A DNA stretch of 64,000 bases from assembly GCA_949317995.1 (NCBI GenBank), contig OX439037.1:52858080-52922079 (forward strand). Reading direction: 5' to 3'. The stretch is from Acholoe squamosa. Taxonomy: Eukaryota; Annelida; Polychaeta; Phyllodocida; Polynoidae. Both the position numbers and the translations under genes were made by a program. Positions within the stretch are counted from its first letter, which is position 1; each line of letters starts with the position of its first letter. The notes beneath the pieces are model-generated. The model was not told where the DNA came from. It made no database searches and saw only the letters and a program-made list of their open reading frames with translations. Shown here one piece after another: positions 4,401 to 53,600 of the stretch.

Positions 4401-7400
4401 AATTAAAGTACTGATATCTTTTTATGGAGATCCTGAGCGTTTATTAGATCAGCTCTCAAGTCAGGGATGAAAGTCTTCAGGGAATTCCCTGATTTCAGGG
4501 ATTTTGAAATTCCAGGGCCCTATACATTCATATAGAAACCCAGATTTTTAGAGCAAATATTTCAGGGATTTTCATGCTCTGTGACTTTCATCCCTGTCAA
4601 GTGTCAAGTGATGGATGTAATAAAAATAGATCGGAAACCCGCCAATAAAATATTTTTATTTCTTTAATGCTTCCATCGTCGACATACAATCTGAGATTTA
4701 GTAGTACATGCTATTCAATAGAATTCACTTGGTATAATAAAGAGACAGGCAACTAATGTGTAGCGACGTGCTTTTGCTACTGCAATTGGCGTAGTTTTCT
4801 TTGCTACAGTAGCAAGTAGCAAGTCCAGTGGGGGGCCAATTTAGTTCAGCTTTTATTAGCTGGTTGACGAAGATTCAAACGAGGTAACAGGTTTAGTTGA
4901 CAGCACTGACCAATTCATCGATATGCCCTTTCTTGTCCGATTATGCAGTGCACATATCTTTCTAAATGTACCTGATAATTACATTTTAATGACCTGGTGT
5001 TAATCATTTTCACATAGATAACTCAAAGTAATTTTCAAATAACAGGTGTATCTTCCCTTTCTTTTTAACCAGGTTCTATTTGCCTCTTCTCATATCACTG
5101 ATGGCAATGCTCGCTGCCTACATTTACATTGCCATCATGGTCAATAGGCAGGTCAGTTTGTACTTTTCTCTTTCATTATCTTTCTACGGAAAGAACTTTA
5201 TTAGAAGTGAAAAATATGTATACTATCCAGTGCCAGTAATTAACGCGGCAGACCCGCGCTTTTGGTATCGCCCAAAAAGCCATGACACCTTATAGGGAAG
5301 CTCGATGTATTGATTTTTCAATCCGCCTTAAAGGTAACAAATTTCAACCATCCTCTTCTAATTATGTGGAATAGGAGGGGAAGATGTTGGATCGCACTTT
5401 AAACGTTATATTTCTTGTGAAAACAGTGTATTATTATACAAAAAAGGGAAAGATGTAGATAAGACGCTTGGATTAAGACCGTTTCAAGTCTCGCATTGTA
5501 TCATCAGATATTGGGAGATATTGCATCTATGGTTTAGAGATTACCACTGTGAACAGAAGTGCAGACAGTATAGAAACAAAGCAGACGGCTAGAGAGAGGA
5601 TTACATGTAGCGTCGAAATGACTTCATAGCAGGTTAGTAAAAGCGAATTGAGCCCTGTGTCTTCATTCAGGGATTGAGGCCGCTATGGCGACAAAATGCT
5701 CACGGGGTGTGTGAGGGTAGTGTCCGGCCCAAGCTGTCCGCCGCCGCGTTCATTCCACGTGCCAGTGTGGAAACAAGTCTATATTTTTGATATAACATAG
5801 AAGTGCTCTGCCCTCTCTGTTCCAATTGTTTGACTTCTGATTAATGACGTTCATTATTTCATTTACAGAGTCGAACGTGGGAAGGTCTCTACGATCCTGA
5901 TGTGGAGAGAAAAAAGGTGTGTGTATATACATATATATATATGTGCACAATATTTCTCACGCGGGAAATATTGGTATATATTGATCCAACTAGAGGTCGC
6001 TTGTGTTGTTGTATTACTACGCCCTGCCTTATATATAACAGGGACTATTTCCATTTCCGCCATTATTCAAACATTCCCACGTCGCCAGGTTCAATTTTTT
6101 CTTCTTGCCATCATGCCTAATGTTTGTGGAGTATGCAAGGAGGAGTATGATGGTCGCAAGAATGAATGCCCTTACTGCAAGGATGACCAAGATTATATAT
6201 CAAGACGGAATGAGCGACGTGCAAGTGTGCGAAATGAGGTAATACGAACTCAGACTTCTGGTGCGGTGGGAACTCGTGCCAGTGTGGCAGGTGATCTTGA
6301 TGACAGTATTACAGAATTGGTGGATATGTCCTCAGTCATCAGAGAATTTAATAGACTGTCTGTTAATTTAAATGACAGAATGAACAATATTGAGAATCTG
6401 ATCCATGATATTGGGAGACGGTTACCTGTTGCGCAAAACACACAAGATGGCGTAAGCGGTGGGGGTGTTACCGGTACTCAAGGTGGCAGCCATGTTAATC
6501 CAATCATGAATCACCACTTCAACTTCAGCGCTACACCTGATAATGATGCAGTTCATGTTGAGCTAGCTGTACCAGCTGGTAATCCTTCAGTTGGGAATAA
6601 TGCTTCCACTTCCAGTCGCCAAAATTTGGGTAGAGGAGAACCGTCCTTAGAGCCGGTTCGTCAAGCACATACCCAAAGCTTGGATGGTGGTGCTCGTGGA
6701 GGCCCTTCTGCAGATTCATTAGCTGATGGTGCTGAGTCCGAGAGGGATGATCCAAATGCCCTGAGTAAGTTTGATTTGCGCAGATTTTTGCCAGCTGCAG
6801 ACAGAAAAAAGCCTTTATCAGTTGAGTCCCCAGAAAAACTTATCTATTTACTCACACGTCTTATGGAGGACTTATCACACCGAGGTTATGATGTGTCTGG
6901 GCTTTTGCAACATATTTCATTCATTTCATGGATGGCTTCATCTGGCATTTACACTACAGAGGCTTTGGTGGATTATGATTATGAAGTCCGTGACAGGGCT
7001 CGTACCAGAGGCTGTAAGGCATTCACAGGAGGTGATACTCATTTGTCTACTATGTACTTAGGTGCTACCGGTACTAAGGCCTACAAAGCTCAGAATAAGC
7101 CTAATACGGGTGCCAACAATAGCTATGGCAGAGGTCGTGGTGGAAATTACAGAGGCGGGGGCTACAACAACAGAGGTAGAAATAGTGGATTTACGGGTTG
7201 GAGGAGAACAGCAGCTGATAGAGACATTTGTTTTGAGCATGCACAAGGTAGAAGGTGTGATGGGTGTCGCTTCAAACATGAGTGTACGTGTGGGTCAAAG
7301 GATCATCATATGTTAAATTGCCCTCACTTCCCCCGTCGTAGGGATAATGACGGTGGTGCCGGCAATGCATGACTTACCTCAGAGATCGTTGACACACACT

Positions 7401-10400
7401 TGGTTGATGACCAATCAATCTCAAGTAGTCAGGAGGTGTCAAAAACACTTGGTAATAGTAGTGACAATGGTTCAAATTCATGCCCGGCGGCCATGTTTGT
7501 AGGTCAAGTGGAGCAGTCGAGCGACTTCGAGTCGTGTGTACACGATTATAATTGCATATCTGATAATTCTATTGATTATGAAGATGCACATATCAATGGC
7601 TGGGGAGATGAAAATCTTGACAAAAATGGTGATTATTGTCCACTTGATATTAGTTCCCTGGATAGTATTGGTTCTGACAAAAAATGGGAAAAATGTTTCG
7701 AAAATTTGGGAGTCGCGCCAATCAAAGTGGAGTGTTTACAAGATGGCGTCGCTAACATTGAAGTTTGTTGTATTCACGACTCACTTTGGGAATCATTGCC
7801 TGAATTTGTAAGTGTTACCTCTCAAATTGATGTATTACGTCACTGTAGTGAGTCTTTTGATTGTGATGTACCTATTTATTCAGTTGAAGTAGTTCCAGGT
7901 GGTTGGGTACCAGTTTGGCGCCGCTGTGCTGAGGGGGTATGTTCTTGTGTATATACGTTAGAGGGGGAGGTGAGTCAACTCAAACCTTGTCGCTTTGTTT
8001 CAAAATTCATGGAATTTCATGGAAAGAGTACAGAGGACATTTATGTGATAACAGGCCTGTATAGGGGCTTCAGGATTGTAGCCATGACTGCACAGCAGCT
8101 TATTACTGTAACAATTACGCTTCCTTATTAGGAAGTAAATTTGCTGGCGACATGACTCAAAAAATCGAGGAAGAGTTGGCTGCAGGCAATGTAAGAAAAG
8201 TTAATAGGCAGCCACAGTGTGTTCATGCGATGGGGGGCATTGAAAAATCTGATCATACCCTACGCCCAATTACAGACTGTTCCAAACCTAAAGGCTTAAG
8301 TATTAACAATTTCATGAACACTTCTTGTAAAAAGTTCCGGTATAATTCCCTAGACGATGTGGTTGAATTGTTAGAGGAAGGTTGCAGCTGTAGTGTGACT
8401 GACATTTCTTCAGCTTACCGCAGTGTTTGTGTTATAGCCAGTCATAGAAAATTCCAAGGTTTCTCTTGGGATAGAGGAAAAGGTGCTGGGCTTGAAATGT
8501 TTGAGGACTTACGTCTTTGCTTTGGGCTAAAATGTGCCCCATATATTTTTACCATGATCTCAAACTTTGTGGTAAAAATTGGTCGTCTGGGTAGCTTCAG
8601 TAAATGTATTAATTACCTAGATGATTTTTTGGTTACTGAAGCAAATGAAGATATTTGCAAACGGTCCCAGGGAAGTCTGTGTGTATGTCTAGAGAATCTG
8701 GGGTTCGTGATCTCAGCCAAAAAACAAATACCTCCATCAACTGAGGTAAAGTACCTTGGTATATGGATAAACACTGTGGACATGACATTGTCTGTAGGAG
8801 AAGACAAGCTGTCTCGAGTGAAGCAAGGTATCGTTGATATAAAGTCAAAAAGTACATGTAAAAGAAAGGACTTGGAGCGCTTAGTAGGACTTATTGCCCA
8901 CTGTGCAACCGTGGTCCGGGGAGGACGTACTTATGCAAGGAGGTTGTACAATTTTCTGGCAGAGACTGAAGGGCAAAAGATGGTAACGTTGGATGAGCTG
9001 GCCAAGTTAGACTTGAACTGGTGGAGTACATTCATGGCTTGGTTTAATGGTAAGGCGAGGATATTGAACCATATTGGTAATGTCTGGAATTACAGCTGTG
9101 ATGCATCAAAATATGGTTTTGGCGGGCATTGGGAAGAGGATTTCACTTGGGGGTGCTGGGATGGCCCAGGTGATCGTTGCCCACATGAACATAGACCCCC
9201 GACAGAAAGGTATGATGATCACATAAATGAACAAGAGTTGTGGCCAGTCTTAGTGTCAATAGTAAGATGGGGTGGCAGATGGCGAAATTCCATCATATAT
9301 GTGACAACAGACAATACTCAAGTATTAGCAGTCCTCAGGTCAGGTAGGAGTCAGAATGCAACAGCCATGGCTTGGGCGAGGGAGTTGTTTTGGTCCTGCT
9401 CTTTTTACAACATACACTTGAAGGCCAATTGGATACCAGGTGTCGACAATATTGTGGCTGACTCCCTGTCCAGATTGAACAATCACGATTGTGTGGCTAT
9501 TTGTGCAGCAGTCTTACCAGGATTTTATACTTGTTGTTCCAGAATTGAGCATCCTGTGGGACGAGTGGCTAGATCTCAGGGAAGAGGCGTGGTCTGCAAA
9601 TACTAAGAAGGCTTACTCTTCGAGGTGGAATAAATATTATGGCTTCTGTGCTGAGTACAAGTTCTCACCATTACCAGCTACAGTGACTACAGTGTGTTTG
9701 TACATTACTTACATGGTAAAAACTCTGAGTTATGTTTCAATCAAGAACTATGTGTCGAGTCTATGGGTCCTTCATGATATACATGGATATGAACATGTTG
9801 ACCCAGTTTCTTTCCTCATCAAGAACACGCTGGATGGAGCTAAGAGACTGTTAGGCAATCAAACACGACAGGTGGATCCCTTACATCCACAGGACCTGGT
9901 GAGGATGTCTGGTGTATTGGACATGAGTGTTTGGTCTGACTTCACTTTCTGGTGCGCCTTATTATTGAGCTACCGGTGTTTACTTCGTGTGGGTCATGTA
10001 TGTGCATCTCCACATACCCTAAGAGTGAAGGATTTGTTTTTCTGGGATGGTGGCATGGATGTATTCATTCATTCATCAAAAACAAATCAGTTCAGAGAGC
10101 GTTCTCAGTGTGTACCGGTAGTTGAATTTGTGGATGGGTTGCTTTGCCCAGTTAGGCCTCTACGTATATATATCTCCAGATGTGGACTCAGACATGAGGA
10201 CTATGTATTTCCTTACACATACAGAAAGTACAACCAGAAACTTAAGGAAACACTCCAAGCTGCTGGGATTATAGGGGACTATGCCACTCACAGTATAAGG
10301 AGAGGAGCTGCAAATTACTTGTCAACTTTTCTTCCCCTGCATGAGGTGAAGAAATATGGAGATTGGAGATCCTTGGCGGTCTTACTTTATCTATCTGATG

Positions 10401-10814
10401 ACTATAAGACTCGTAAGAATAAGGACATTGTGGTTGCCAGACATCTAGGTATTTTTGGTTAGGCAAAAGTGTTGTTATTTGTTGGGTTTTTTGCCCCTGA
10501 GTTTCAGGATTTAGGCAAAAGTGTATTCAACCCTTTGTGTGTTCCATTCTCGTAACAGATCATATGTGCACAATATTTCTCACGCGGGAAATATTGGTAT
10601 ATATTGATCCAACTAGAGGTCGCTTGTGTTGTTGTATTACTACGCCCTGCCTTATATATAACAGGGACTATTTCCATTTCCGCCATTATTCAAACATTCC
10701 CACGTCGCCAGGTTCAATTTTTTCTTTTTTCTTTGTTTGAATAAATTGGCCCCTGAGTTTCAGGATTTAGGCAAAAGTGTATTCAACCCTTTGTGTGTTC
10801 CATTCTCGTAACAG

Positions 10815-21000: not shown

Positions 21001-23541
21001 AAGCACAGAAGGCTCAGGGAAGGAATAGTACCGTAAATAATTATACAAGGAGAATCTCAGAGGCAAAGAGTGTAAACAACTTAGAGATCATATGGCTGCT
21101 GACCCAACCCTTAACAGTAAGGAAATAATTGATACATATTACACACTTCTTGACTCTGCAATCCCTGTCCTGTTCAAGGTCTAAAACAACTAAATTCCCT
21201 CAAAATCTGTGGTTTAATGCTGAGTGCAAGTTAGCAAAGAGGAATGTGCATGACTATGGTAAAAATTATGACCTCAAGGTTGAATTCAATAAAGAAATGT
21301 ATAACCTGCTTAAGAGAGAATACAATAGACTAGTCCAGAAATGTAAAAGGAGTGATAAAAGAAGAAAGGGTCTCGAGTTTGAAAGAATGTTGGAGATAGA
21401 AAATAATAATAATAGGTTCTGGAAGTCGTGGAAGCAAATACAAGGTAAAATGACCCGTTGTGATATCAAAATAGCGGAGTTTGTTGAATACTTCAAGAAG
21501 CAACAGACTCCTCCACATATTGACTATTTTGATTATGATAATATGAAAGAAATAGAAACATTTGTCGATAACTTTGAGTGTAGCTATGGTTCAGAGGATA
21601 TAGATGCATTGATACAATTCCTATTAGACTCCTCTATCACTATAGAAGAGGTAGAAGATGCAATAAGATCTCTAAAAAATAAAGCAGCCGGAACAGATGG
21701 TATACCTGCTGAATACTTAAAACAAGGAGGGAAAGTTTTTGCTGAGGTGATTCAAATTATGTTTAACTGTGTATAGGACACCGCTGAATTTCCAGAGAGA
21801 TGGGCAGAAGGAATAATAAGTCCCTTACATAAGAAAGGAGATACAAGCGATCCTGATAACTATAGGAAAATTACTATTATGAACAGTACATGCAAACTTT
21901 TTGAAATAATTATTAATAACAGATTGAAATTCAATAATGATATGCTGAATCAGAATGACCCTCTACAGAACGGGTTCGTAGATAAAGGTAGGACAACCGA
22001 TAATGTATTTATACTATATACTGCTGTGAAAATGGTGCAGGCTGAAGGTAAATCTCTTTTGTTTTATTGACTTTACTAAGGCCTTTGATTATATTAACAG
22101 GAAGGCATTATTCTATAAGTTGATGTCTGGGCAGGTAAAAGGGAAAGCACTTAAAGTTCTAATGAATCTTTACAAGAAGTCTCACTCAAAGGTTCGGGTC
22201 AACTCTGAATTAAGTGAGGACAGAGATAGTTTATATGGTGTGTTACAAGGTGGAGTACTCAGTCCTAAATTATTCAATGCTTTTCTCTTAGATATTGATG
22301 AACATCTTGACCCTAATCTTGGAATTGATGTTTGTGGTATGCGTGTTGCTTATCTGCTATATGCAGATGACTTGGTTATAATGTCCACCTCAGCTAGGGG
22401 TCTGCAGAATCAGCTAGACAATTTGTTTCAGTATTATAGAAAATGGCATCTACTAGTAAATATAAATAAGTCAAACATCATGATATTTATCCACAAAAAG
22501 AAGGATATTACTAACACCTTCAAGTATGGTGAAACACAGCTAGTAAGAGTAGAAAACTATAAGTACTTAGGGTTTATACTAACAACTAATCATAAAGACA
22601 TCTTCTTTGATGCATACAATCGGCTCTATGACAATGGTAGAAAAGCTGCCTATCAATCATATTCATGTTGCTATCAACATATTGGAAAACCAGATCCCAG
22701 GATGGCGCTCAAGTTATTTGATAGCCAGATAAGGCCCTACCTTGACTATGGTTGCGAGGTATGGGGCCTGACTAAGGGAAATAAGGTGGAGAAACTAGAG
22801 TCCATACTCCTAAGGTACTTAAAATCGATGTTGAGTGTTAAGTGCTAAAAAGTGTTAAAATCGGTCGGAATAGTCTTAATCCGACGATTTATAATATATC
22901 AAAAGTATTGAAAAAAATCGGTTGGATTGGTGTTCAACCGACCGATTTACTCCTATGGAACCAGCACTTTAGAAAACAGACAACAGCAGCTGCAGTATAT
23001 GCAGATACAGGGAGGGTACCTCTATAAGCACAATGGGAAATTCGAGCACTCAGTTACTGGGAAAGAATTGTACACCTCCCAGAGTCACACATACTACGTA
23101 AGTGTTACAAGAAGCTAACTTTGCTTGAAGATGCTGGTCAGATAAATTGGTGTAGTAATGTTAAATGCTTGTTGAACTCATTGGGTGAACGATATATTCA
23201 ACACTGGATTAACCAGACAACTTGTGACGACCCTAAAGCTATCACTGCTGTAACTGGACCGATAAATAGGAAATATATAGAACAAACAATGAATGAAATA
23301 ACATCAGCTGGTGAAGGAAAAAAAACTAAGAACATACAAAATATTCAAAACTGAGTTCAGGCTTGAAAGTTATCTATTCTGTATCCCTAACCAAGCCCAC
23401 CGTATAGCATTGGCTCATTTTAGACTCAGCTCTCATAACCTGGGTATAGAAACGGGAAGGCATTGCTGGGCGCCAAAACCTGTGTGTAATCGGATTTTTC
23501 TATATTTTTCTAGTGGCCATGTAGATGATGAAATACATTTT

Positions 23542-23591
<50 letters not shown>

Positions 23592-30773: not shown

Positions 30774-33700
30774 CTGAAATAGAACGGATCTAACAGTGGG
30801 TAAAATGGTCAAAAGTAGTGGGGGTTTTACGTACTTAGGGAGCGTTCATTATTTATGGCAGGGGGGGACGACAATCTGTCAGAATGAATACGTCAGAAAA
30901 AACTGACCCCCCCCTTCAGAATGGGTTGAGAAAAAATGACCCCCCCTTTCGGAATGGGTTGAAAAAAAATGACCCCCCCCCTTAGGAATGGGTTGAATAA
31001 AAAGACCCCCCCCCCCCCTCAGAATAAATTGAAAGAAAATGACTCCCACCACATTTAACTACATTCAACAGAGGCTACATCAGGTCCTTTCATTATACAA
31101 GGTGATATTAGCAGCTTTAGAACCATTTCAGTTATATGTCATCTTTTGAGCAGTCAAATTGTGAATACACTGCTGTTGATTGATTTACCTCTAGGTAAAA
31201 TATCAATTTGAAGGCTAGCATGGATAAGACGTACTTGCGTGCACATTTTTTTAGCTGGTTTCTGTGAATTTGTGAACGATCTTTGAGCAGGTACCCATAT
31301 TGTTTTTTCCCGTGCTAGCCCCCCTTTAAGGGCCGGCTAGCATGGGCTACTACTGATGCAGCTAAAATAGGTATGTCTTAGTAAAATATTCCATGTGACC
31401 TACTCCTGACCAATGGAAAAATTGTTCTGATTGAGGGACTTGGTTCTGGTTTCTTTTTCAAAAATTTTATATACGGTACAGAAAAAAACTTTTGTAGCTT
31501 GTCTTTCTCTTTAGATTTCATTGTAATCTCAGTTTTTATATCAATTTGAAGGGTGTTATAGACATAATTCTTGTCAGGGTTGATTTCATCAATGGGTGAA
31601 AACAAGAGTTAAATCTGGAAAGATCTGATTGCGAGTTGCGGTGATTTTAGCATGAGGTGTATGGTGTAGCACCACAAAGTGCTGTTTGTGGTGTACCATA
31701 CCCTTCCCAGTACCCCTTTAAAGGAAAGTACTTATTTTCATGATGACATCTTTTGAGACAATCAGCAGGGCGAGCAAAAGAACAAGGAACATTGTGTCAC
31801 AAATTGGGCCAAATACTTCAATCTCAAGAGCTGAACAGTGTTACACCCCAGGGAAAACTGTATACATATACCAATTTACAATTACAATTTTACAATTTAC
31901 AATTTTATTTATTCACATCCTCATCAGAGGTAAAGGAAAGAAAATAAGAAAAGAAATCAGCTCTAGCTGATAGTTACAATGGCTTCACTGAGTTACAAGT
32001 GTATAAACATTACAAGTGTGATAATAAGTTTACATATAAATGAATGCAAATACTTAAAACAGAAAAAGATCAACTTAGTACCTGACTATGTACATTTGTA
32101 GTAGGACACAAAAGTACTACTGATAATACTTCATCCAGCGGATGTGAGGGCCAGGCAAATCTGGCAGTACCAATAAAATAAGTTGAGATTCTCGGTCTCC
32201 AGCACCGATGAGCACCATGTTGACTAGTAAACGGTGTGAAGACGGTATGAGGTATAGGAGCACCACACAAACTACCTAATTTGACTAGTGTGTCCTAATG
32301 ACAATATAAAGTACAGTACACCACTCTAGCTATCCAACTTTTATCTATCCACCATGGTAAGATTGATGGGTCAATATGCGATGAAACAGTTACACTATGC
32401 TTTGGGCTATTATTGCATAGACTTTTTCCTTCTTGCCCGCTTTTTATTGTTCTTTTTTGCTGGGGCTATCCTCTTCGTGGGTCTGAATTTTTCCATGACA
32501 ATTGCACAAAATTTGGATAAGTGTGTAAGAACAAAGGGGTTTTTGTTATTAAAAAGATCCACCATAGCCACTGTACTTGGTCGTGGTGGTATATTATTGG
32601 CAAGAAGTAATGCTCGATCATGGTCAAAAGCTGGACAATGGAAAACGTAATGCAATTCATCCCCAATGTCATCACTCTTGCATAGGGGGCACTTTCTTTG
32701 GGAATACTCAATACCAGCGTATCTCCCAGTTACCACCGGAAGGCGGTGATTTCCACACCGGAATCTACACAAAGGGATTGAATACTTTTGATTAAGGTTA
32801 AGCAGATATGGTTCAAGATTGAGCTCAGTTTTGAAAATTCTGTAATTGTAACAGTGTCCAGAGCCCATTACACTACTGTGCCAATCCTGATATTCTATGT
32901 CAGTGAGTCGTCTTTTAACTTTGGCTTTTAACAAGTTATGTGGTATATTAGTAGCAGCATGCCCAAGAAGATTGCCAAGTCCATTTTGATCCATACATCT
33001 CTGGACATATGTGAGCCACTGTGACTGTAGGCTACCATTAGTCTGCTTACCATGCACAATATTATACAATATAAGAGATATCTTGCTTGTTTTCCCTGTA
33101 ACAATCTTGTGCCAGAAATTAATTACCCTCTGTTTTACCAAGCAACTTAGCCTGGAGCGACCAAGCTCTCCTAGTGCAACACAGTTGGCTGTGCGGCCAT
33201 TCAATTTTAGAATAAATTTACAAAAATAGCTCTGGACACGTTCAATCTCACTTAAGTCTGAGAAACCCCATACTTCACAGCCATACAATAGTATTGGGAC
33301 AATGCAAGAATCTAATAGGTGGCACTGTATGTCAACTGGTAGTTGAAGTTTTCTTGACTTTGATAGTAGGCTGAACAAGGCCCGCTTAGCCTGTGTGACT
33401 TGCTTCTTTATAGCTTGGGTGAATTTTCCATTAAAATTGAATTCTATACCCAGATATGTGTAACTATATTGTACTTCAAGCTGCTCGTTCTGGTAAAACA
33501 GTTTGGGTAGTTTCTTTACCTTTCCCCTAGAGAAAATCACTACTTTTGTTTTTGGGGTATTTACATCAAGTTTCCAATCATGGCAATACTTCTGCAGCAC
33601 ATGAAGCATGTCTTGCAGATCCTGGGCTGACTCACTAAGTAGAATTGTGTCATCGGCATACAATAAGATATAAAGCTTCAGAAGCGCTTGAGATTCAGGA

Positions 33701-36700
33701 TCAGTACCTAAGGAGCTAATACCTTTGCAGTGATTTTGAAAATGAATTTCCAGATCATTCAAGTAAATTGCGAAAAGGAGTGGGGAAAGATTCTCCCCTT
33801 GTCTTACTCCAATGTTGCAGCTAAAATACTCAGATAGGCAGTTTTCAACCCGGATGCAAGATTTTGCAGCCTTGTACATGTTCTTAATAACAGTAAGTAC
33901 CTTGTCATCAATATTAGTTTTAAGGAGTTTCAACCACAATGATGACCTGTCCACAGTATCAAATGCCTTCCTATAGTCAACAAAGGCACAAAATAACCTT
34001 TTTTTTTCTGGGAAAGAAATAGTTCAATTATACAGTGCAAGTTAAATATGTGATCAAGTGTGGAGTAACCTTCTCTAAATCCTGCTTGCTCTTCTCCTAA
34101 CATATTGTTATGTTCCAAGTAAGTGCGTAGGCGTAAATCTAGTAACATAGTGAACAACTTTTCCATGCAACTAAGTAGAGTTATACCTCTGTAGTTGTCA
34201 GGATCGTTAATATTACCCTTATTCTTATATATAGGTACTATAACACCAACAGACCAGCTCTCGGGGACAATACCAGTATCTAGCACCAGATTAAAATAGC
34301 CACAGATCACAGTTAAAAGAGAGCGAGGACTGTTTTTCAAAAACTCATTAATAATGGAGTCATTTCCCGCCACTTTCCCATTTTTTAGTCTCTTTACCGC
34401 TGCCTCAATTTCTGCGACAGTTACTGGCTTGTTGAAGGATAAATTACTAGCCTCAGGCAGCAGGCCCCCATGACCAGTCCTTAAACCATCATCGTCAGTA
34501 TTTGCATACTCAGAAGGTGCATTCGTTACCACATTCAGGCTTTCAAAGTGGGTCTTGAAAGAGTCAAGAGAGATTAGGACACTCTTGTTTTTCGAACCCT
34601 GGGCATTGTTAATGATCTTCCAGTATTCTTTAGGGTTTGTACTTTTTACACCCCATAGCTTTGTAGTCAACTTACTGTGGTAGTTTGATATGGCAAGCCT
34701 TATGGTTTTCTTGTATTTCTTGTTTAACTGTTTTAACAAAAACTTATCTGCAGGGTCCTTGCCCATGGCATAGCGATTTTTTATCTTGAGCACTTCTTTT
34801 CGGGCTTTCTCACACTCCTCCGTGAACCAGGGTTTTCTGGGCATTATGCGTTTCCGGTATGCACCTGTGCTATTATTTGTAGCCCTTCTGTGGGGTAGAG
34901 TTTTAATAACACCGGTATGCTTACCACTCTCCATGTACAGCTGGGTGACCAACTTGGATATGTGGTAAATGTCTGCCTGGACTACTTCGGTACCTGACTC
35001 TTGCATGTTTCTGATAAGTGCATTTATATTCCAAACAATATCCAGATCAAACGATTCATTAAACACTGGACCCTTACCAACTTCCCAACATACCCTAGTG
35101 GAAGGCACTTGAAGGCCAATATCCCGAGTACAAGGCTCATTCTGTGTTACCACAGGTGGACTTGATGCAGAGAGCTCTAGAATGATAGGGGAATGCACAT
35201 CTGACAGGCAGGAGTCAAAAGTACCAACAGAGAAAGTGTTTATAGAGGGAAACAACGATGCAGTTGCAACAGCGTAGTCTATAGTGCTCGCACCTTTACA
35301 CGTAAATTCAGCCAATCTTTTGCCAAATCTACCGTTTACAAGGAGGAGGCCTGCACTTATGCAGAGGTCAATAAGCTTCTTACCATTTAAGTCGAGCTTC
35401 TGGCCAGTCCACATCCTTTCTACTTCTATACCCAGCCTCCTCATAGCAGTAGTGTCTAAGTAGATTTCACTTGCAATGTCCTCCAAACCTGTTTCATGTT
35501 GTACATGTTTACCTGGTTCTGTAAAGTCATGTGCACTTCCAGTCCTTGCATTAAAGTCACCGACCAGACATATTTCACAATCAGAATCAAGACTCTGTAT
35601 ATTGATAAGGTCAGACAGTATGCTTTCAAACTCCTCACTTGTGCTGTAGGGGGAGTCTGAGGGGGGAATGTAAACGGTTCCTAAAATGAGGTTATATCCT
35701 AAGATTATTGGTTCTAGTCTTAACCACTGGACAAATTCATTCTCACTAGGTTTGGCGGGGCTAACATATTTTGCTATTTCATTTTTGATAAATGTAGCTA
35801 TGCCCCCTGACTTCCTCGAGAATTTCTCCCTATGATGATAAAACGGGGTAAAACCTTCTATGTCTATATTTGCCTCATCAAGAGCATCAAGCTTTGTCTC
35901 TGATAGGCTAATGACATCAAAGTTATCATAAATATAGTCTTCTAGTACTGCATAGTTAAGCTTCGAGATAAGGCCACAGACGTTCAGTCCTAGGATTCGC
36001 AGGTGTTGGACTTGACATTTGATATCCACATTGGAAATAACCTCTGGGCTGACTAACAAGAGTGGATGTGACTCAGCTCCTGGAGCTCTGCAGAAACTGT
36101 TTGAGGGTGGGGTTTTAGAGAAACCATGCCCATGGGGTGATGTTAACGGAGTAACATCATTGGGACTTGTCCCCATGGGCTCTGGCCCCAACCGCCGGGC
36201 ACCATCGCCTGCCAGCTGGGGTGGGACGGCTGTAGCCCAACATTATAGACAATGCCAGGTCGAGCAGGGGTACTAGGTGATAATTGACCAAACCCACTCT
36301 GTAGCTGTGCAAAAGGCATTTGCGGGTAGGTCATCTGACCTAGGTTTGGTGGTTGGACATAGGGCAGTACTTGTGTAAGCCCCGTAACCCCAGTAAAGGT
36401 TGGCTGCAAGATTTGGGTCTGGACTTGTGGTAGGGTAGAGCTAGAAGTATTACTATCCTTGTCCTTGGTTGCCGTTCCCTGGTTGCTCTGGTTTGGCTGG
36501 GAGGCTTGGGCCTGAGCTTGTGGCACTTGATGTAGGGCAGGGCTAGGGTCGTTACTATCCCCATCCTTGTCCTTGTCGGACGACTTCTGGTCGCTTGTGC
36601 ATGTCTGGGGGGCTTGGACCTGAGCTTGTGGCTCCTCCTCATCTTTTAGGCATACAAATGTTTCTTTCATGAGTTGTTGCAACTCATCCATGATCATTTG

Positions 36701-39700
36701 CTTTTCAAAGGCCACGGATGGAGATGGTTGTGGGGTAGAGGCCTGAGGGACCTTCTTGGCCTTGGCCTGCCCTCGACTGGGTTGCTTTGGATAGGCACCC
36801 TTATTACTGGGACCAGTAACATCCTCTTCAGATTCTAGTTCTGAGAATCTATTGCTGACCGGTATCGGGACAGCCCTCGGGTGATTCTGTGAGTTTTGGC
36901 CACCCTTTAGTTTATTGTGCACAGGGGCTGACCAGCCATTTCCTCCAGCAGGGACTTGGCAGGCCGTTTTCTGATGGGCCACTGTCACTGGGTTATTTGC
37001 TGCCTCCTCTCCTGAGATCACAATCTTCAGATTAGTTGCTACTTGCTTCAAACCTGGCTGACGAAGATGCAATTTGTCCTTCTTAAGCCTACTGGGCAGG
37101 TATTTGAAAGTGGAATTGTGGTCCACAAAACACACCCGCTCTGAATGCAGTGACTCCAAGAAATCATTGAAGTTGTCAATACGGTCATTAAGGTTCAGGT
37201 GCGCCTTGTCATAGCGATGGAGTATTCCTGAGAGCACCACCTTTGTGTCCTGGTTGTAGAACAGGATGTCACTAACCAATGCCTGGTATTCAGACTTCAT
37301 GCTGTTGAAATATCCCTGTTCCACATTATTCGTCCCACAATGGACGATGACATACTTAGGAGTTTTCCCTTGTAGCACATTCGCTATGCGGCGCCGGACA
37401 CCCTTGATGTCTGCACCGGGGTTGACATCTACAAAGGCCCGGACATCTCCCATGCACTGCTCAATGCCTTGCAGCATTGAGTCTGAGAGGATAATCACGT
37501 CAGTTCCAGCAGGGGTGCTTGGCACAGTGCACGCACTTGTGTGAGCTGCAGTTGTTTGGGTTGTGCCGGCTGTAGGGGCAGCAGGGGGGATGAGGCTGGT
37601 CTTTCGAATCTCTTCCCTGACGTTCTGGAGAGTGACTCCCATGAGGTTTACCCCTTTACCATCTCTGCCAAATCCCCAGCATGAGTCCGTCTCCATGTTG
37701 TGGATGAGTTGGCTGGTACCAGTGGCCTGGAGGGCGTCATAGTACTCCCGTGACTGCTGTGCCTGAATTGTTCCTATGTGCAACATGACTTCCCCTTTCA
37801 TGTTGTCCCAATCACTGGAAGGCTTGGGTATGTTTTAGCTTCCTCATTTCTTCAGCTTTGTCATCGAGCCCATGCTGCTTCAGCTTGTTGAAGCAGTACA
37901 GATGCTCCTGTGATTTAAATGACAGGCCCTTGTCTGTCAAATGGCATATGTAGTGGGTGGAGAGTATATTCTTCCACCCTCTGAAGTAGATGACATCATT
38001 GTTACTGTCTTGGAGGACCTTTAACTGGTCCCTCACACTTTCAAGCTCATCACGCAGCAGGGAGTGGGCAGCCTGGAATGTATCAAATGATGCTAACCAA
38101 AGTGGTAGTGACTGGCCTCATCCATGTTTAAAGGGGGCTTATCATGTCAAATCTTAATATGGGTACCTGCCAAAAGATCTTTCACAAATTTGTAGGAACC
38201 AGCGGAAAAATTCCGATGCCCCGATTGGTCAAGGAGTGGTCATGTGAGTTGGTAACACAGGTACCGGTACATCTTATCCGTGCTAACCACCCTTTGACAC
38301 ACAAAGAAGTAAGACTCCGATCATATAACATAATCAAATGGATTTGAATTAGAGGTAGCTGGTAACAAAATGTTGGGCAGAATTATATCTAGAATTATTA
38401 CTGAAAACCAAATAGTTAAAATTCGCGACGTGTCGCAAAAATTTTTGTTCCTTTGTCATAAAATTTGCATCACATTGGCAAATACTCCCCAACAGGAAAC
38501 TACCTGGCCCTCGGGAATGGGTAAAAAAAAAATGACCCCCCCCTCTAAGAATAGGTTGAAAAAAAGCGACCCCCCTCTAAGAATAGGTTGAAAATAAATG
38601 ACCACCCCCCTTTGAATACCTCCAAAAAAAATGACCCCCCCCCCTTCATTTGGTCATCCCCCCCGCCATAAATAATGAACGCTCCCTTAATACGCCCGGT
38701 TTCGCTGGATTTCTTTGATCAATTGCACCTACCGTAATCTCCCGCGTATAAGGCGCGTCTTATATGCAAATCAGACCGGGGATGGGTCTTATACGCGGGA
38801 GGCAAGCTGCCTTGAGTTGGGGGTGCGCCTTATACGTGGGTTTTTCCAATAACTCATTTGGGATTAAGTCAGGTATGATGCTGATCATATATATTTTTTT
38901 TAATGCCACAAATGAGGTGTGGCCAGAGGTAGAACTTGTTTCTAACATTGTATCATCAGTTCTTTAGATTTCTTTTCCTACATTCATGTATTCTCTCAAT
39001 GCTGTAGCATGTTAGAGAATGAATTTAGATCAAAACATTATCTAAAAATAGTTTGAACATCTATTCTTAAGTCAAACACATAGCAAGTTTATATAAATGG
39101 TATACTGGCTCCATCTGGTGGCACTTCTAGGAACCATTCCTATTGAATACAGGATTATAAATGATCATGATCAAGATACAGTTTGCATTATTATTATGTG
39201 TTAGATTGTATTCCCAGTTCTGTAGTTGTAAATCGATTTTAGGTTATCCATGCTTAGATCACTGTTTTACATGATAGATTTTATGCTATCATGTAAATAA
39301 GTCATCATGATGTGGTTGATTTGTCAAAACTGTCAGAAGACAGTATGCAATTGAAATTTACCTCAAACTGTACCTTAATCATGATCATTTATAATCATGT
39401 ATTGGAATGGTTCCTAGAAGTGCCACCAGATGGAGCCAGTATACCATTTATATAGACTTGCTATGTGTTTGACTTCAGAATAGATGTTCAAACTATGTTT
39501 AGATAATGTTTTGATTTAAATTCATTCTCTAACATGCTACAGCATTGATAGAATACATGAATGTAGGAAAAAAAGAAATCAAAAGAACTGATGATACAAT
39601 GTTAGAGACAAGTTCTACTTCTGGTCACACCTCATTTGTGGCATTAAAAAAAAATATATGATCAGCATCATACCCAACCTCATCGTCGGGAGGCGTGGCG

Positions 39701-50600: not shown

Positions 50601-53600
50601 TTTTCTTTCAACTCTTTTTCATGAGGGGTAGCTCCAAATCATTTTCAAATGAAACTACTAGATTTACACCCAGTGATATAGAAATTTCTTAGGCCTTAAG
50701 ACTACAGTGTTTGACACCAATATCTAAAAATTTCCTTGGGAGACAAGCTTAGCAAAAATTAATGTATGGTATCAGGACATAAATTTGCATCCCTTGCTGA
50801 AAATGCTTGTCTATACCAAAATGCTTTAAATATAAGTTTGATGATTATTTTATGAGAGGTTTCTTTGGGCATGACCCAAAACTCTCTTAATCACCAGTGC
50901 ATAACCATACTCATGAGGGTACACCAGAATGCTTTAAACTTCAAGGTTTGACATCTATTTTTCAATAGATTTCCCAGGGGTGGTTCAGGCCCCCACACCC
51001 CACTTAGACAACAATATCTGAACGTACTAGATTCACATCTGAGGCTAGTTGAACCCCTTAAACTATAGTTTGACAACTATATTTGAATTTTTTTTGAGGA
51101 ACCAGCCCCCAAGACCTCACAAACGACTAAGCACATAAGATTTGCACCTCCTTATATGGAAACCCTGCCCACCCTAGCTTTACACCAAAATGTTTTAAAA
51201 TTTGGAGTTTGATATCTACATTTCTGAAATTTTCTAGGGGGCATACCCCCAAGCCTTCCCCAAACACCATTGTGCAATCAAAATTTAATACGATTTTCAT
51301 TCCCTGTTCTCATAATCATCTGATGGTAAACCAAAATGCTTTACTGGATTGGGCTAGAAATGCATCAGAATGCACCATTTGATGTCTAGATTTCAAAATT
51401 GCGCTTGCGACATCGCAGACATGCCCCTGAAATCTCACTCATGTCCATTCTCAGAACTTGACAGCCCTGGGGGCATGGACTTAGAGACAAATGACAATGC
51501 TGGGACAATGAAACTTCTTAAAATCACAAGGGAGATGGGGTTGAGAGACAAGGGAAAAGGCCACTTCTTAAAAGTCACATGGTACCTCCTAGTCCATTCA
51601 ACTAAGCTTGTCAAGTTGGGAACTCACTAATCCTGCCAGTGGTTGTCAGTCACTCAATAGACAGTCATTTATGTGTTAAGCCAGCTTATCGCTGTTGTTG
51701 TCAAGACTAAACTCTAAAGTGTAGGACTCACTGACTCTACACCTAACTACACTCTACAGTGCCACCCAACCCATTTAGTGCCAGTTTGGTGTTAGGACTC
51801 AATAACTCTTAACATCCACCCAATATTTTGGCTCAAACTCGAAAAAAAAAAATCTTGAAATCAAACTCATCATGGGTGATAATGAGGATGCTGCTGCTCC
51901 ACCCGGTGCCAGTGCTGGTGCCGGTGTTGGTGGTGCTTTCGGTGAAATTCCCTTTTATCATGTGTTTAATGAGAAAGCACCGGATATATCAACAGAATGG
52001 GAAGATTGGCAAGAGGGGTTGGAGGCTATGTTCGCTCTCCAGAAATTCACAGAAGGGCAGGAGGATCAGGACAAATTTGCCAAGCTCTTCTACTACCTCA
52101 GAACAATTTGTAAAATTCTCAAAAAACTAGACAACAATGGGGTGGCAACTAAAAGCTATAAGTTTGCAAGTGAAGCACTCACTAAATATTTTTGCCTAGG
52201 CGTGCGCGATATCATGGACTCGCTGGACCTGACAAAGAAGACGGTTCAGGAGATCGAGGAACTTCTAATTATCACCCAACTTGTGAACTGCACCACTAAT
52301 GTGGAACTCGGGCGTACAACACTGCGCACTCGTGGGGTGCTACAACTCAAGAACTTCCCCAACCGGGCTCGCTGTGATGAGTCCGCACTCAAAGAGTCAT
52401 CAGAGATTAGTGGCACCGCTAGTGGTATGACGGCTACTCTGGCAGTGAATACGCATCGTCCTAAGAATAAGTCAGGTCAATCCGCTCAACCCTCCGCAGC
52501 ATCCGCTAAGAGGAAGACATTGGCACTGACACAATCAGGCAAGTGCCTGTACTGCAGTGGTACTCCTCACGACGGTCGCCGATGTCCAGCAAGGAACTGC
52601 GTGTGCAATAACTGTCAGAATAAGGGTCACTTTGTGAAGGTTTGTAGGAAACCCAGGTCGGTGAACGAAGTGGCCGGGAGTGAAATCCACTCGGAAGTGA
52701 AACAGACTCAGGAGACCTTCCTCTGTTCAGTCGACACCACTCAGGGACCGGTGACGAAGAAGGTACCCAAGGTCATCATAAATGGCATCTCCACTCCAAT
52801 GCGTATCGACACCGGGGCGGAAGCAACGCTTATCGACAGTTAGCTATATGCCGAGAAGGTCACCTCTGAAAAGCTACTCGCCTCTGACTATGTGTTCCAG
52901 GGTGCCAAACAGGGACAATTCTCCGCTCTCGGATACTTCAACGCAGAAGTTTAATTTTATATTCGCATTCTCCACATATGTATAAGTTTTAAGATTCTAA
53001 ATCAGAGACACAGTATTACTAGTATCAGTTTAACTCGTTCATCAATATTATCTTTGAACCTCAAGGATCTGTATTATCATCTAGTCTGAAGACTCTATTC
53101 TAGTCCTTTGAGCATAGTATCAAAATGCGAACACTCATTTTATTTGAAACTCAAAGACTCATATCATATAATACTCAAAAGACTCAAAGAAAGATGTAGA
53201 ATACGTTCCGATATTTGCAGTCGCGCGGTTGCGGGTAACGCGCTCCATATTAAATCTATGAGTAGAGTTTTTAGCAATCTTGCATCTATCTCTCTCTGTA
53301 TTCTACCAGCATAGAGTCATGACTATAATGTAAAACTTAAGCAATATAAATGATGCATTTAACACAACACTGCATGTCAAAAGCATGTTCCAAGTTTTTC
53401 TTAGTCAAATACAACTAACCCTTAGTCAAAGTGCCCAACTTGCCTTGGCTTACCTGATTTTGACTAAGATTCCCTGGGGGTTTTGACTAAGTATGCAATC
53501 TAATTACTATTTGGTCTAATTCGAATAGTGATTGTAAGCTCTATATAGGATCCACATCCCACAAATCATTGTCTCATCATAGAGGAAGCATGTGAAATGC

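Follow-up and report, generated by a model that had tools for sequence, protein, structure and literature searches.

Introduction

NADAR domains hydrolyse guanine-ADP-ribose (PMC11543638; this and the other papers cited here are represented by excerpts), and small molecules such as riboflavin intermediates are also substrates, in this case of YbiA (PMC11543638). A His-type of the domain has been defined and assigned to phage gp30.3; T4 gp30.3, which is of this type, hydrolysed guanosine-ADP-ribose in vitro, and YbiA and phage NADARs failed to save cells from DarT1 in vivo, though active in vitro (PMC11125620). What NADARs do outside DarT operons, and in eukaryotes at large, is described as unclear (PMC11125620). 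Invertebrate RNA viruses gained NADARs, which were proposed to reverse host macromolecular ADP-ribosylation (PMC9503650), and guanine N2 in DNA is ADP-ribosylated by shellfish CARP-1 (PMC8053099).

A NADAR-like ORF1 has already been published for Tx1 LINEs of Crassostrea gigas, and Gypsy LTR retrotransposons of Ectocarpus bear a NADAR for which RNA processing was suggested (PMC12477816). In type IV ORF1s, known from CR1, L2 and RTEX elements (ZfL2-1, 4c1b), a coiled coil is followed by an SGNH esterase (PMC3905857, PMC4120745).

Results and discussion

We analysed a stretch of 64,000 nucleotides of Acholoe squamosa DNA (the window), which holds one LINE insertion and the remnant of a second. 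The features, with NADAR residues in Phytophthora numbering, are as follows (P0002 is a metagenome protein, treated below).

31874..38096, minus strand: whole LINE insertion, 5'-truncated (from a related LINE-free site in L011 and the match to L029)
37812..38096, minus strand: end of the coiled coil and N-terminal half of the NADAR domain, in a separate frame, with the E43 and K50 positions (translation; P0002 alignment)
37604..37834, minus strand: C-terminal half of the NADAR domain, carrying LIHNMETDSCWGFG in a second frame, where His occupies the Glu125 position (PF08719 match)
37007..37501, minus strand: SGNH/GDSL esterase domain with LSDS, HCGTNN and DKLH (PF13472; limits from the motifs)
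36143..37006, minus strand: low-complexity tail at the C-terminus of ORF1, whose last residues are ...SPWGQVPMMLLR (translation)
33930..36242, minus strand: first part of ORF2, with the endonuclease and the beginning of the reverse transcriptase (RT), overlapping ORF1 in another frame (PF03372, PF00078)
32410..34023, minus strand: second part of ORF2, frame-shifted, with the RT and a C-terminus that contains Cys (PF00078, E 2.1e-24)
31874..32409, minus strand: 3' UTR and TTGTAAA-like 3' tail (tail read by eye; end from the L011 comparison)
21035..23547, plus strand: what remains of another LINE, namely ORF2 sequence alone; L021 family (95.5% and 93.8% identical to L021, RT 92%)

The limits of the insertion were set by the LINE-free site, in which L011 positions 477-1072 match window 38690-38096 (95.0%) and positions 1069-2063 match window 31873-30963 (87%); as a direct repeat there is no more than the 4-nt overlap between these two matches. 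L029 matched window 38097-32263 at 98.0% identity. An earlier note on this DNA had placed the 5' limit at 38118; LINE sequence in fact begins at 38096, and the copy is 5'-truncated. The endonuclease and RT of ORF2, the 5' truncation, the simple 3' tail and the comparison with the empty site identify the element as a LINE. It is a dead copy, in which a 35-nt deletion, seen by comparison with five other copies, shifts the frame within the NADAR domain, and in which ORF2 is broken. The normal endonuclease-RT ORF2 described earlier thus stood as to its domains and its overlap with ORF1, but not as to its integrity. In its first part the endonuclease profile PF03372 scored above the cut-off (E 8.8e-8, 32.6 bits) and the start of PF00078 below it (E 0.0011).

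The RT of the window family matched those of R2 (E 3.2e-11) and L1 (E 5.2e-7), and a tree of ten rows, built without reference clades, joined it to the L021 family (96/96); assigning the LINE to RTEX would be a guess. ORF2 parts are 98.6-99.3% identical between copies of the window family, suggesting that the family was recently active.

The C-terminal NADAR half and the esterase share a single frame (window 36146-37834, minus strand), in which positions 83-163 of the PF08719 profile matched residues 7-77 (E 1.8e-11, 45 bits; cut-off 35.1) and PF13472 matched residues 140-259, also above its cut-off (E 4e-8). The Pfam search that had been proposed as a check therefore returned both domains. 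The claim that NADAR and esterase are fused in one ORF1 frame holds in the window for this half of the NADAR but not for the N-terminal half, which lies in a different frame (37812-38117); this piece alone gave no Pfam match, but 60 aa of it could be aligned with P0002 at 35% identity (E 3e-10). The LSDS, HCGTNN and DKLH motifs, together with a coiled coil that we infer from long helices predicted in P0002, place the window ORF1 among type IV esterase ORF1s. Its tail end is resembled by those of P0002 and a second metagenome protein, P0001.

Four other copies cover query residues 2-563 at 97% identity and are stop-free, and one of them sits in an open frame of 1077 aa (L030). Because this unbroken frame scores for both NADAR (E 3.2e-18, 66.9 bits) and SGNH (E 9.6e-8), a chance fusion is excluded. 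The NADAR-SGNH layout is common to diverged subfamilies and to P0001 and P0002. PF08719 was above the cut-off of 35.1 bits in all seven proteins of a set that included L030, P0002 and L036, the last two at 74.3 bits. The esterase Asp is displaced from its usual place in P0001, L034 and L036, and PF13472 was absent from the Pfam matches listed for P0001 and L036. With a significant NADAR match and other copies carrying the domain, neither of the results that the earlier note had named as fatal was seen, and its proposal that a retrotransposon recruited a NADAR is upheld.

A one-off chimera, or a NADAR carried along as a functionless passenger, would fit the truncated and frame-broken state of the window copy and also the NADAR pN/pS close to 1 among young copies of the window family (0.97, 14 N : 4 S, vs 0.22, 6 N : 8 S, for SGNH; Fisher p 0.068, not significant). 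These counts exclude the out-of-frame start of L031 and include L033 for NADAR but not for SGNH, and they show no sign of recent constraint on the NADAR of this family. The chimera is nevertheless rejected by the recurrence of the fusion in the four further copies, the diverged subfamilies and the two metagenome proteins. Against a passenger, the NADARs of window-type subfamilies remain 37-59% identical (SGNH 29-49%, alignable N-terminal part 24%, tail 20-35%), with dN of 0.31-0.61 where dS is at least 1.5 or saturated, and other LINE lineages of the genome also have NADARs; dN/dS is withheld because dS is saturated in most pairs of subfamilies. Taken together, we consider this explanation very improbable. 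In two LINE families other than that of the window, the pooled NADAR pN/pS was 0.37 and 0.31, and in the L021 family SGNH was the more constrained domain (0.11 vs 0.37 for NADAR).

Further searches added no relatives. The P0002 NADAR domain alone gave five candidates, none significant; alignment A2 scored none of 7993, missing even P0001 and P0002, and hence carries no weight; and none of 35 pattern matches in viral contigs was confirmed. Among phage records, P0002 had 19 matches (best E 3e-5), too weak for an origin to be named.

Structure prediction against YbiA, also suggested earlier, was carried out on P0002, a relative of the window copy. Residues 371-520 of its AF2 model had pLDDT 79-96, and the first two Foldseek matches of its NADAR were 8bau and 2b3w (probability 1.00), a YbiA-like fold; two modelled proteins matched 8bau, solved with ADP-ribose, and YbiA at this probability. 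Fusion to a LINE-type esterase was borne out by the match of P0002 to 4c1b in sequence (E 0.003), and weakly by fold (rank 44, poor rmsd).

The key NADAR residues had been described as intact. By residue alignment, the window family retains E43, K50, D130 and W133 but has His for E125, and we therefore reject a fully intact catalytic site. This position was His in 9/9 window-type rows (some of them from one subfamily) and Glu in all 23 other rows, including L021 and the L1-type families. Window-type rows had E43 in four of five (Lys in L035) and Lys50 in four of five (Arg in P0002); across 28 aligned rows, Asp130 was present in 28, Glu43 in 27, and Lys or Arg at position 50 in 28. The window type thus lacks the Glu in the last strand that marks the YbiA subfamily and has the His that marks the gp30.3 type, an assignment made on this residue, with no gp30.3 sequence compared and no descent claimed. 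The substitution suggests a gp30.3-like catalytic variant.

The LINE family of which the window contains this dead copy thus has an ORF1 made up of a coiled coil, NADAR, SGNH esterase and low-complexity tail. With roughly even credence, we favour the reading that its NADAR would de-ADP-ribosylate the element's RNA or cDNA. In favour of it are the NADAR profile scores, the fold matches to an ADP-ribose-bound structure, the conservation of positions 43, 50 and 130, the identity of NADARs between subfamilies, the pN/pS of the two other LINE families, and what has been published on guanine-ADP-ribose hydrolysis, on the NADARs of RNA viruses and on CARP-1. The ORF1 protein would multimerise through its coiled coil and coat the RNA of the element and the cDNA as it is made. 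The esterase would tether this particle to membranes, a role that was suggested for ZfL2-1, and the NADAR would strip ADP-ribose, most plausibly from guanine in RNA or single-stranded cDNA. The ADP-ribose would have been added by host ADP-ribosyltransferases, and its removal would leave template and cDNA usable. A whole-genome search for a Scabin-type guanine-modifying writer (PF22596) gave no match, and as none of 14 control genomes matched either, this result is not decisive. Against a protective role stand the change of Glu125 to His, the Arg at Lys50 in P0002 and the Lys at Glu43 in L035, the missing sign of recent constraint on the window-family NADAR, the higher constraint on SGNH in the L021 family, the failure of YbiA and phage NADARs against DarT1 in vivo, and the small-molecule substrates of NADARs.

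The same His in every window-type row, the replacement of W133 in L006, L009, L010, L015, L016 and L027, and the lack of recent constraint in the window family are what might be expected if the NADAR were a binding module that holds ADP-ribosylated protein or RNA and so localises the ORF1 protein, with catalysis lost or incidental. A nematode trans-splicing protein has a NADAR domain (PMC9303266), and RNA-linked, non-obvious roles of NADARs are therefore known. However, the remaining catalytic-site positions are mostly kept, and the His-type T4 gp30.3 cleaves its guanosine substrate in vitro (PMC11125620); we regard a binding module as unlikely, though a serious contender. It is also conceivable that the substrate is a small molecule (an ADP-ribose derivative, a reactive riboflavin intermediate or an NAD-derived signal), in which case the NADAR would blunt a diffusible host alarm and not clear nucleic acid. 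YbiA works on riboflavin intermediates (PMC11543638) and its short loop is common to window-type NADARs, and soluble ADP-ribose derivatives were proposed as targets of phage NADARs (PMC9503650). The ORF1 protein would, however, be expected on the element RNA, which would favour a local nucleic-acid substrate, and the NADARs of eukaryotic RNA viruses were argued to target macromolecular adducts (PMC9503650), making this explanation rather improbable.

De-ADP-ribosylation of the element's own nucleic acids, our preferred reading, is also favoured by the LINEs of this genome at large, where at least three distant RT lineages have a NADAR in ORF1, in one case with an L1-ORF1p-like protein. PF08719 was above its cut-off in 8/8 LINE-side and 2/2 host-like ORFs, and the NADAR adjoined an L1-type or esterase-type ORF1 module in 22 of 24 loci inspected by eye. 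In the L021 family, ORF1 carries a NADAR and an SGNH-like domain. In the L013 family, the RT matched LINE-1 ORF2p (8sxt, E 6.8e-68) and the NADAR lies in ORF1. L1-type ORF1s here aligned with that of L010, another LINE family, outside the NADAR, which is added at their end; the modelled L010 ORF1 matched 2ykp (E 3.7e-6).

In a 28-row NADAR tree, which omits L034 and L038 (NADAR split over two frames) and P0001 (half domain), the window type formed its own clade (100/99) and L013 sat on a long branch among NADARs of bacteria, phages and hosts (93/91). A single origin of all 15 LINE rows was not rejected (p-AU 0.245), and neither was one of the window type with L021 (p-AU 0.342). With the window NADAR pieces, tblastn found none of 28 loci at E 1e-5; the window type is therefore distant from other LINE NADARs.

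That several distant LINE families have NADARs may be a sign of a concealed chemical contest in which the host and its genomic parasites are engaged. As a tentative and somewhat unlikely proposal, invertebrate hosts may ADP-ribosylate retrotransposon RNA or cDNA, and LINEs of at least three distant RT lineages may have answered with ORF1 NADARs. Of the two layouts, one would have the NADAR follow an RNA-binding protein of L1 type and the other would have it precede an esterase, and one lineage would have shifted the catalytic Glu to His. Mobile elements that multiply NADARs would offer a way into this question, as what the NADAR removes would reveal what the host adds.

Comparison with known systems

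The Tx1 LINEs of Crassostrea gigas are alike in having a YbiA-family NADAR in a LINE ORF1, and the L013 family described here likewise combines an L1-like RT with an ORF1 NADAR. They differ from the window family, which has another RT, an SGNH esterase and a His-type NADAR; the excerpt of PMC12477816 gives them one sentence, in which an esterase fusion is not mentioned. The Ectocarpus Gypsy elements share a NADAR inside a retrotransposon. L1-type ORF1p (2ykp) is matched in fold by the L010 ORF1, but here a NADAR is appended at the end.

Type IV ORF1s share with the window family a coiled coil and then an SGNH esterase, and the transposon-specific His of ZfL2-1, four residues before the oxyanion Asn (H191/N195), is present in the window by our own mapping. 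The difference is the NADAR between coiled coil and esterase; the term NADAR is absent from PMC4120745 and unmentioned in the excerpts of PMC3905857. With the YbiA and gp30.3 enzymes (8bau, 2b3w; PMC11543638, PMC11125620) the window-type NADAR shares the fold, a gp30.3-like His and, out of five catalytic-site positions that were compared, four, and it differs from them in being embedded in a retrotransposon ORF1, with a putative activity. As far as the literature was searched, the NADAR-esterase fusion, the His subtype and the spread over LINE lineages appear to be new, and an enzyme domain joins RRM, PHD, CCHC and esterase in the list of LINE ORF1 modules (PMC4120745).

The NADAR-esterase LINE of the window

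We delimited the LINE carrying the NADAR domain by comparison with L011, a separate locus of the same genome at which matches to window 38690-38096 and 30963-31873 adjoin; because this related site joins both flanks without the LINE, the insertion is placed at 31874-38096. The window copy's match ends at 38097 and two relatives, L029 and L030, extend further. On its sequence, the copy is an ordinary 5'-truncated LINE insertion. The LINE features of the window are:

31874-38096, minus strand: LINE insertion, limits from the L011 site
37812-38117, minus strand: NADAR N-terminal half, in another frame than the C-terminal half
36146-37834, minus strand: NADAR C-terminal half, SGNH/GDSL esterase and low-complexity tail in a single frame
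33930-36242, minus strand: ORF2 frame with endonuclease, overlapped by ORF1
32410-34023, minus strand: ORF2 frame with reverse transcriptase (RT), separate from the endonuclease frame
21035-23547, plus strand: remnant of a second LINE with 94-96% identity to the L021 family, only ORF2 sequence remaining

The frame at 36146-37834 scored above the Pfam cut-offs for both domains that the earlier note had proposed, PF08719 over the NADAR C-terminal half (E 1.8e-11, 45 bits, cut-off 35.1) and PF13472 (E 4e-8, 34.4 bits, cut-off 32.9). The N-terminal piece by itself gave no Pfam match, and could be aligned to P0002, an unnamed ENA metagenome protein. The note had placed NADAR and esterase in one ORF1 frame overlapping a normal ORF2; the shared frame of the NADAR C-terminal half and the esterase stands, as does the overlap with the endonuclease frame, but the NADAR N-terminal half lies in another frame and ORF2 is broken into two. 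Because the NADAR halves and the ORF2 parts are split between frames, the window copy is non-functional. Aligned with its ORF1 region, five fetched relatives (L029-L033) show 23-37 mismatches and span a 35-nt stretch missing from the window copy; L031 and L033 each have one more gap. Their ORF2 parts are 98.6-99.3% identical to the window's (3837 nt for L029; 542-1007 nt for the rest), so the family has probably been mobile recently.

Other elements of the window were read by eye. Just upstream of the LINE, one sequence occurs twice, mutually facing (38861-39690), and these copies seem to form a long, foldback-like inverted repeat. A retroelement at 5834-10462 (plus strand) with gag-like, RT/RNase H-like and tyrosine-recombinase-like (HSIRRGAANYL) ORFs is reminiscent of the DIRS type, and a gag-like ORF with CCHC knuckles and an aspartic protease start (DTGAEATLID) at 51806-52843 (plus strand) likely marks an LTR-type element.

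Recurrence of the fusion

Searching the same genome with the 563-aa window frame yielded 112 candidates, of which 77 were scored and at least 68 matched, including the window itself and four more stop-free copies (residues 2-563, 97% identity), one more copy with a stop, fragments, and matches diverged to 24% identity. Within limits that we set, the NADAR part was covered in 31 of the 68 rows, the SGNH part in 25 and both in 15, a split that is no census of domain loss, as many rows are fragments. Open ORF1 frames occur in L030 (1077 aa; NADAR 459-591, E 3.2e-18; SGNH 654-773, E 9.6e-8) and L036 (717 aa; NADAR E 1.8e-20; esterase motifs present, PF13472 not listed by Pfam at E <= 0.1). Beyond this genome, the same layout is found in two ENA proteins, P0001 (498 aa, beginning at the NADAR C-terminal half, esterase assigned from motifs only) and P0002 (907 aa; NADAR E 1.8e-20; PF13472 E 0.0029, under the family cut-off). 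The earlier note had pointed to other copies, in which absence of the domain would speak for a one-off chimera; the NADAR-SGNH pair was present in further copies, in L030 and in P0001 and P0002. A one-off chimera is ruled out by the four 97%-identical copies, the diverged relatives and the two ENA proteins.

The AlphaFold2 model of P0002 (15-row alignment) was poor overall (mean pLDDT 57.3), with NADAR (371-520) at 79-96 and SGNH (541-710) at a mixed 61-91. Foldseek against the PDB returned first 8bau, an ADP-ribose-bound NADAR (E 5.9e-8), and 2b3w, the YbiA structure with which comparison had been suggested, and then chiefly SGNH hydrolases, with 4c1b (ZfL2-1 ORF1 esterase) at rank 44 and a poor rmsd of 19.1 A. 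Sequence matches of P0002 were 5.6e-8 for 8bau, 1.4e-6 for 2b3w and 0.003 for 4c1b.

NADAR domains in other LINEs of the genome

A NADAR profile search gave at least 150 passing loci (150 scored, 150 passed; 3224 first-look candidates). Two short proteins, L001 (184 bits) and L002 (169 bits), look like host NADAR genes. These single-domain NADARs are 63% identical, and in the tree their closest neighbours are a bacterial and a phage NADAR. We inspected 24 further distinct loci, chosen non-randomly for variety (20 fetched, 4 as 3.4-kb loci): from translation and similarity we read 15 as an L1-type ORF1 plus NADAR, 7 as L021-like and 2 as other. All fetched loci but L027 (19 of 20) include an RT frame with an xADD motif, L027 having none in its 9 kb, and PF08719 was above cut-off in 8/8 LINE-side and 2/2 host-like ORFs scanned. 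The NADAR ORFs of L023 and L027 (274 and 230 aa) are 45% identical over 196 aa.

The L021 family, source of the second LINE remnant, has an ORF1 (757 aa in L021 and L022) with NADAR followed by an SGNH-like domain, assigned by reading the sequence and unreported by Pfam as PF13472. The L010 ORF1 model matches both 8bau and human LINE-1 ORF1p 2ykp (E 3.7e-6), which at this locus supports by fold a predicted fusion of L1-type ORF1p to NADAR; Transposase_22 was unreported by Pfam in the scanned L1-type NADAR ORFs, as was L1 ORF1p for L013 by sequence search.

The three RT groups are only 18-28% identical pairwise over the aligned RT region, indicating that at least three distant RT lineages bear NADAR ORF1s. 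The window family, the L021 family and the second window LINE group together in a 10-row RT tree (96/96), the L013 RT is L1-like (E 6.8e-68 to LINE-1 ORF2p 8sxt), and the RTs of L009, L010, L015, L016, L023 and L026 have a common G(V/I)PQGS..(L/I)GPL motif, which we take to be typical of CR1/Jockey-like RTs. The window RT weakly resembles R2 (3.2e-11) and L1 (5.2e-7), the L021 RT being somewhat closer to L1 (2.7e-26). The domain may have spread by repeated capture or by ORF1 exchange; a single origin of all 15 LINE NADAR rows was not rejected (p-AU 0.245). The NADAR of L013 (1007-2578) sits on a long branch of the tree, placed (93/91) among those of bacteria, phage and host instead of with those of the remaining LINEs, and is possibly a separate capture.

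Catalytic site and selection

We mapped NADAR rows by alignment onto the Phytophthora residues described in PMC11543638. The earlier note had called the key residues intact, and in the window-type rows E43 (4/5), K50 (4/5, Arg in P0002), D130 and W133 (5/5 each) are retained, but His occupies the E125 position in 5/5 of these rows and in 9/9 rows of a second alignment, some of them mutually close relatives, against Glu in 23/23 remaining rows. The catalytic position is given as Glu in the YbiA family, Asp in the BC4488 family and His in phage gp30.3, and guanosine-ADPr was hydrolysed in vitro by every type tested, including T4 gp30.3 (PMC11125620). The window-type NADAR is like gp30.3 and unlike YbiA in this position, and His there does not by itself mean that the domain would be inactive. 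Lys replaces E43 in the window-type NADAR of L035 (1003-1824), altering the catalytic site of one subfamily.

We estimated pN/pS from events counted against the majority codon, so that the values rest on small numbers and include post-insertion decay. NADAR gave 0.37 (8 N : 6 S) and SGNH 0.11 (4 : 11) in the L021 family; in the L013 family NADAR gave 0.31 (13 : 12) and the RRM-CTD part 0.49. The in-frame parts of L036 and L038 differ by 6 N : 2 S in NADAR and 1 : 1 in SGNH. Among six copies of the window family, some of them partial, NADAR stood at 0.97 (14 : 4) versus 0.22 (6 : 8) for SGNH (Fisher p 0.068), and recent constraint on NADAR is not apparent in these six copies. A ratio near 1 would suit a NADAR that is a mere passenger in LINE ORF1, a reading we consider very improbable. 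Between window-type subfamilies NADAR is 37-59% identical, and dN of 0.31-0.61 while dS is >=1.5 or saturated speaks for long-term constraint on the domain.

Proposed role and known systems

The anatomy of the fusion and its conservation are observed directly; with a presumed enzyme action, substrate and writer, they form the model that we favour, in which ORF1p with predicted NADAR activity would clear ADP-ribose at guanine from element RNA and cDNA. The shellfish protein CARP-1 modifies DNA guanine at N2 (PMC8053099). A search of the genome for Scabin-like genes gave zero matches, its controls being likewise silent. A similar role has been put forward for NADARs of invertebrate RNA viruses (PMC9503650).

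NADAR in retrotransposons is already known, and the NADAR-esterase fusion is new within the open-licence literature searched: the papers listed there included no report of the fusion and, beyond PMC12477816, none placing NADAR in a retrotransposon. That paper describes NADAR in Ectocarpus Gypsy elements and notes, in one sentence, divergent NADAR matches in ORF1 of oyster Tx1 LINEs.
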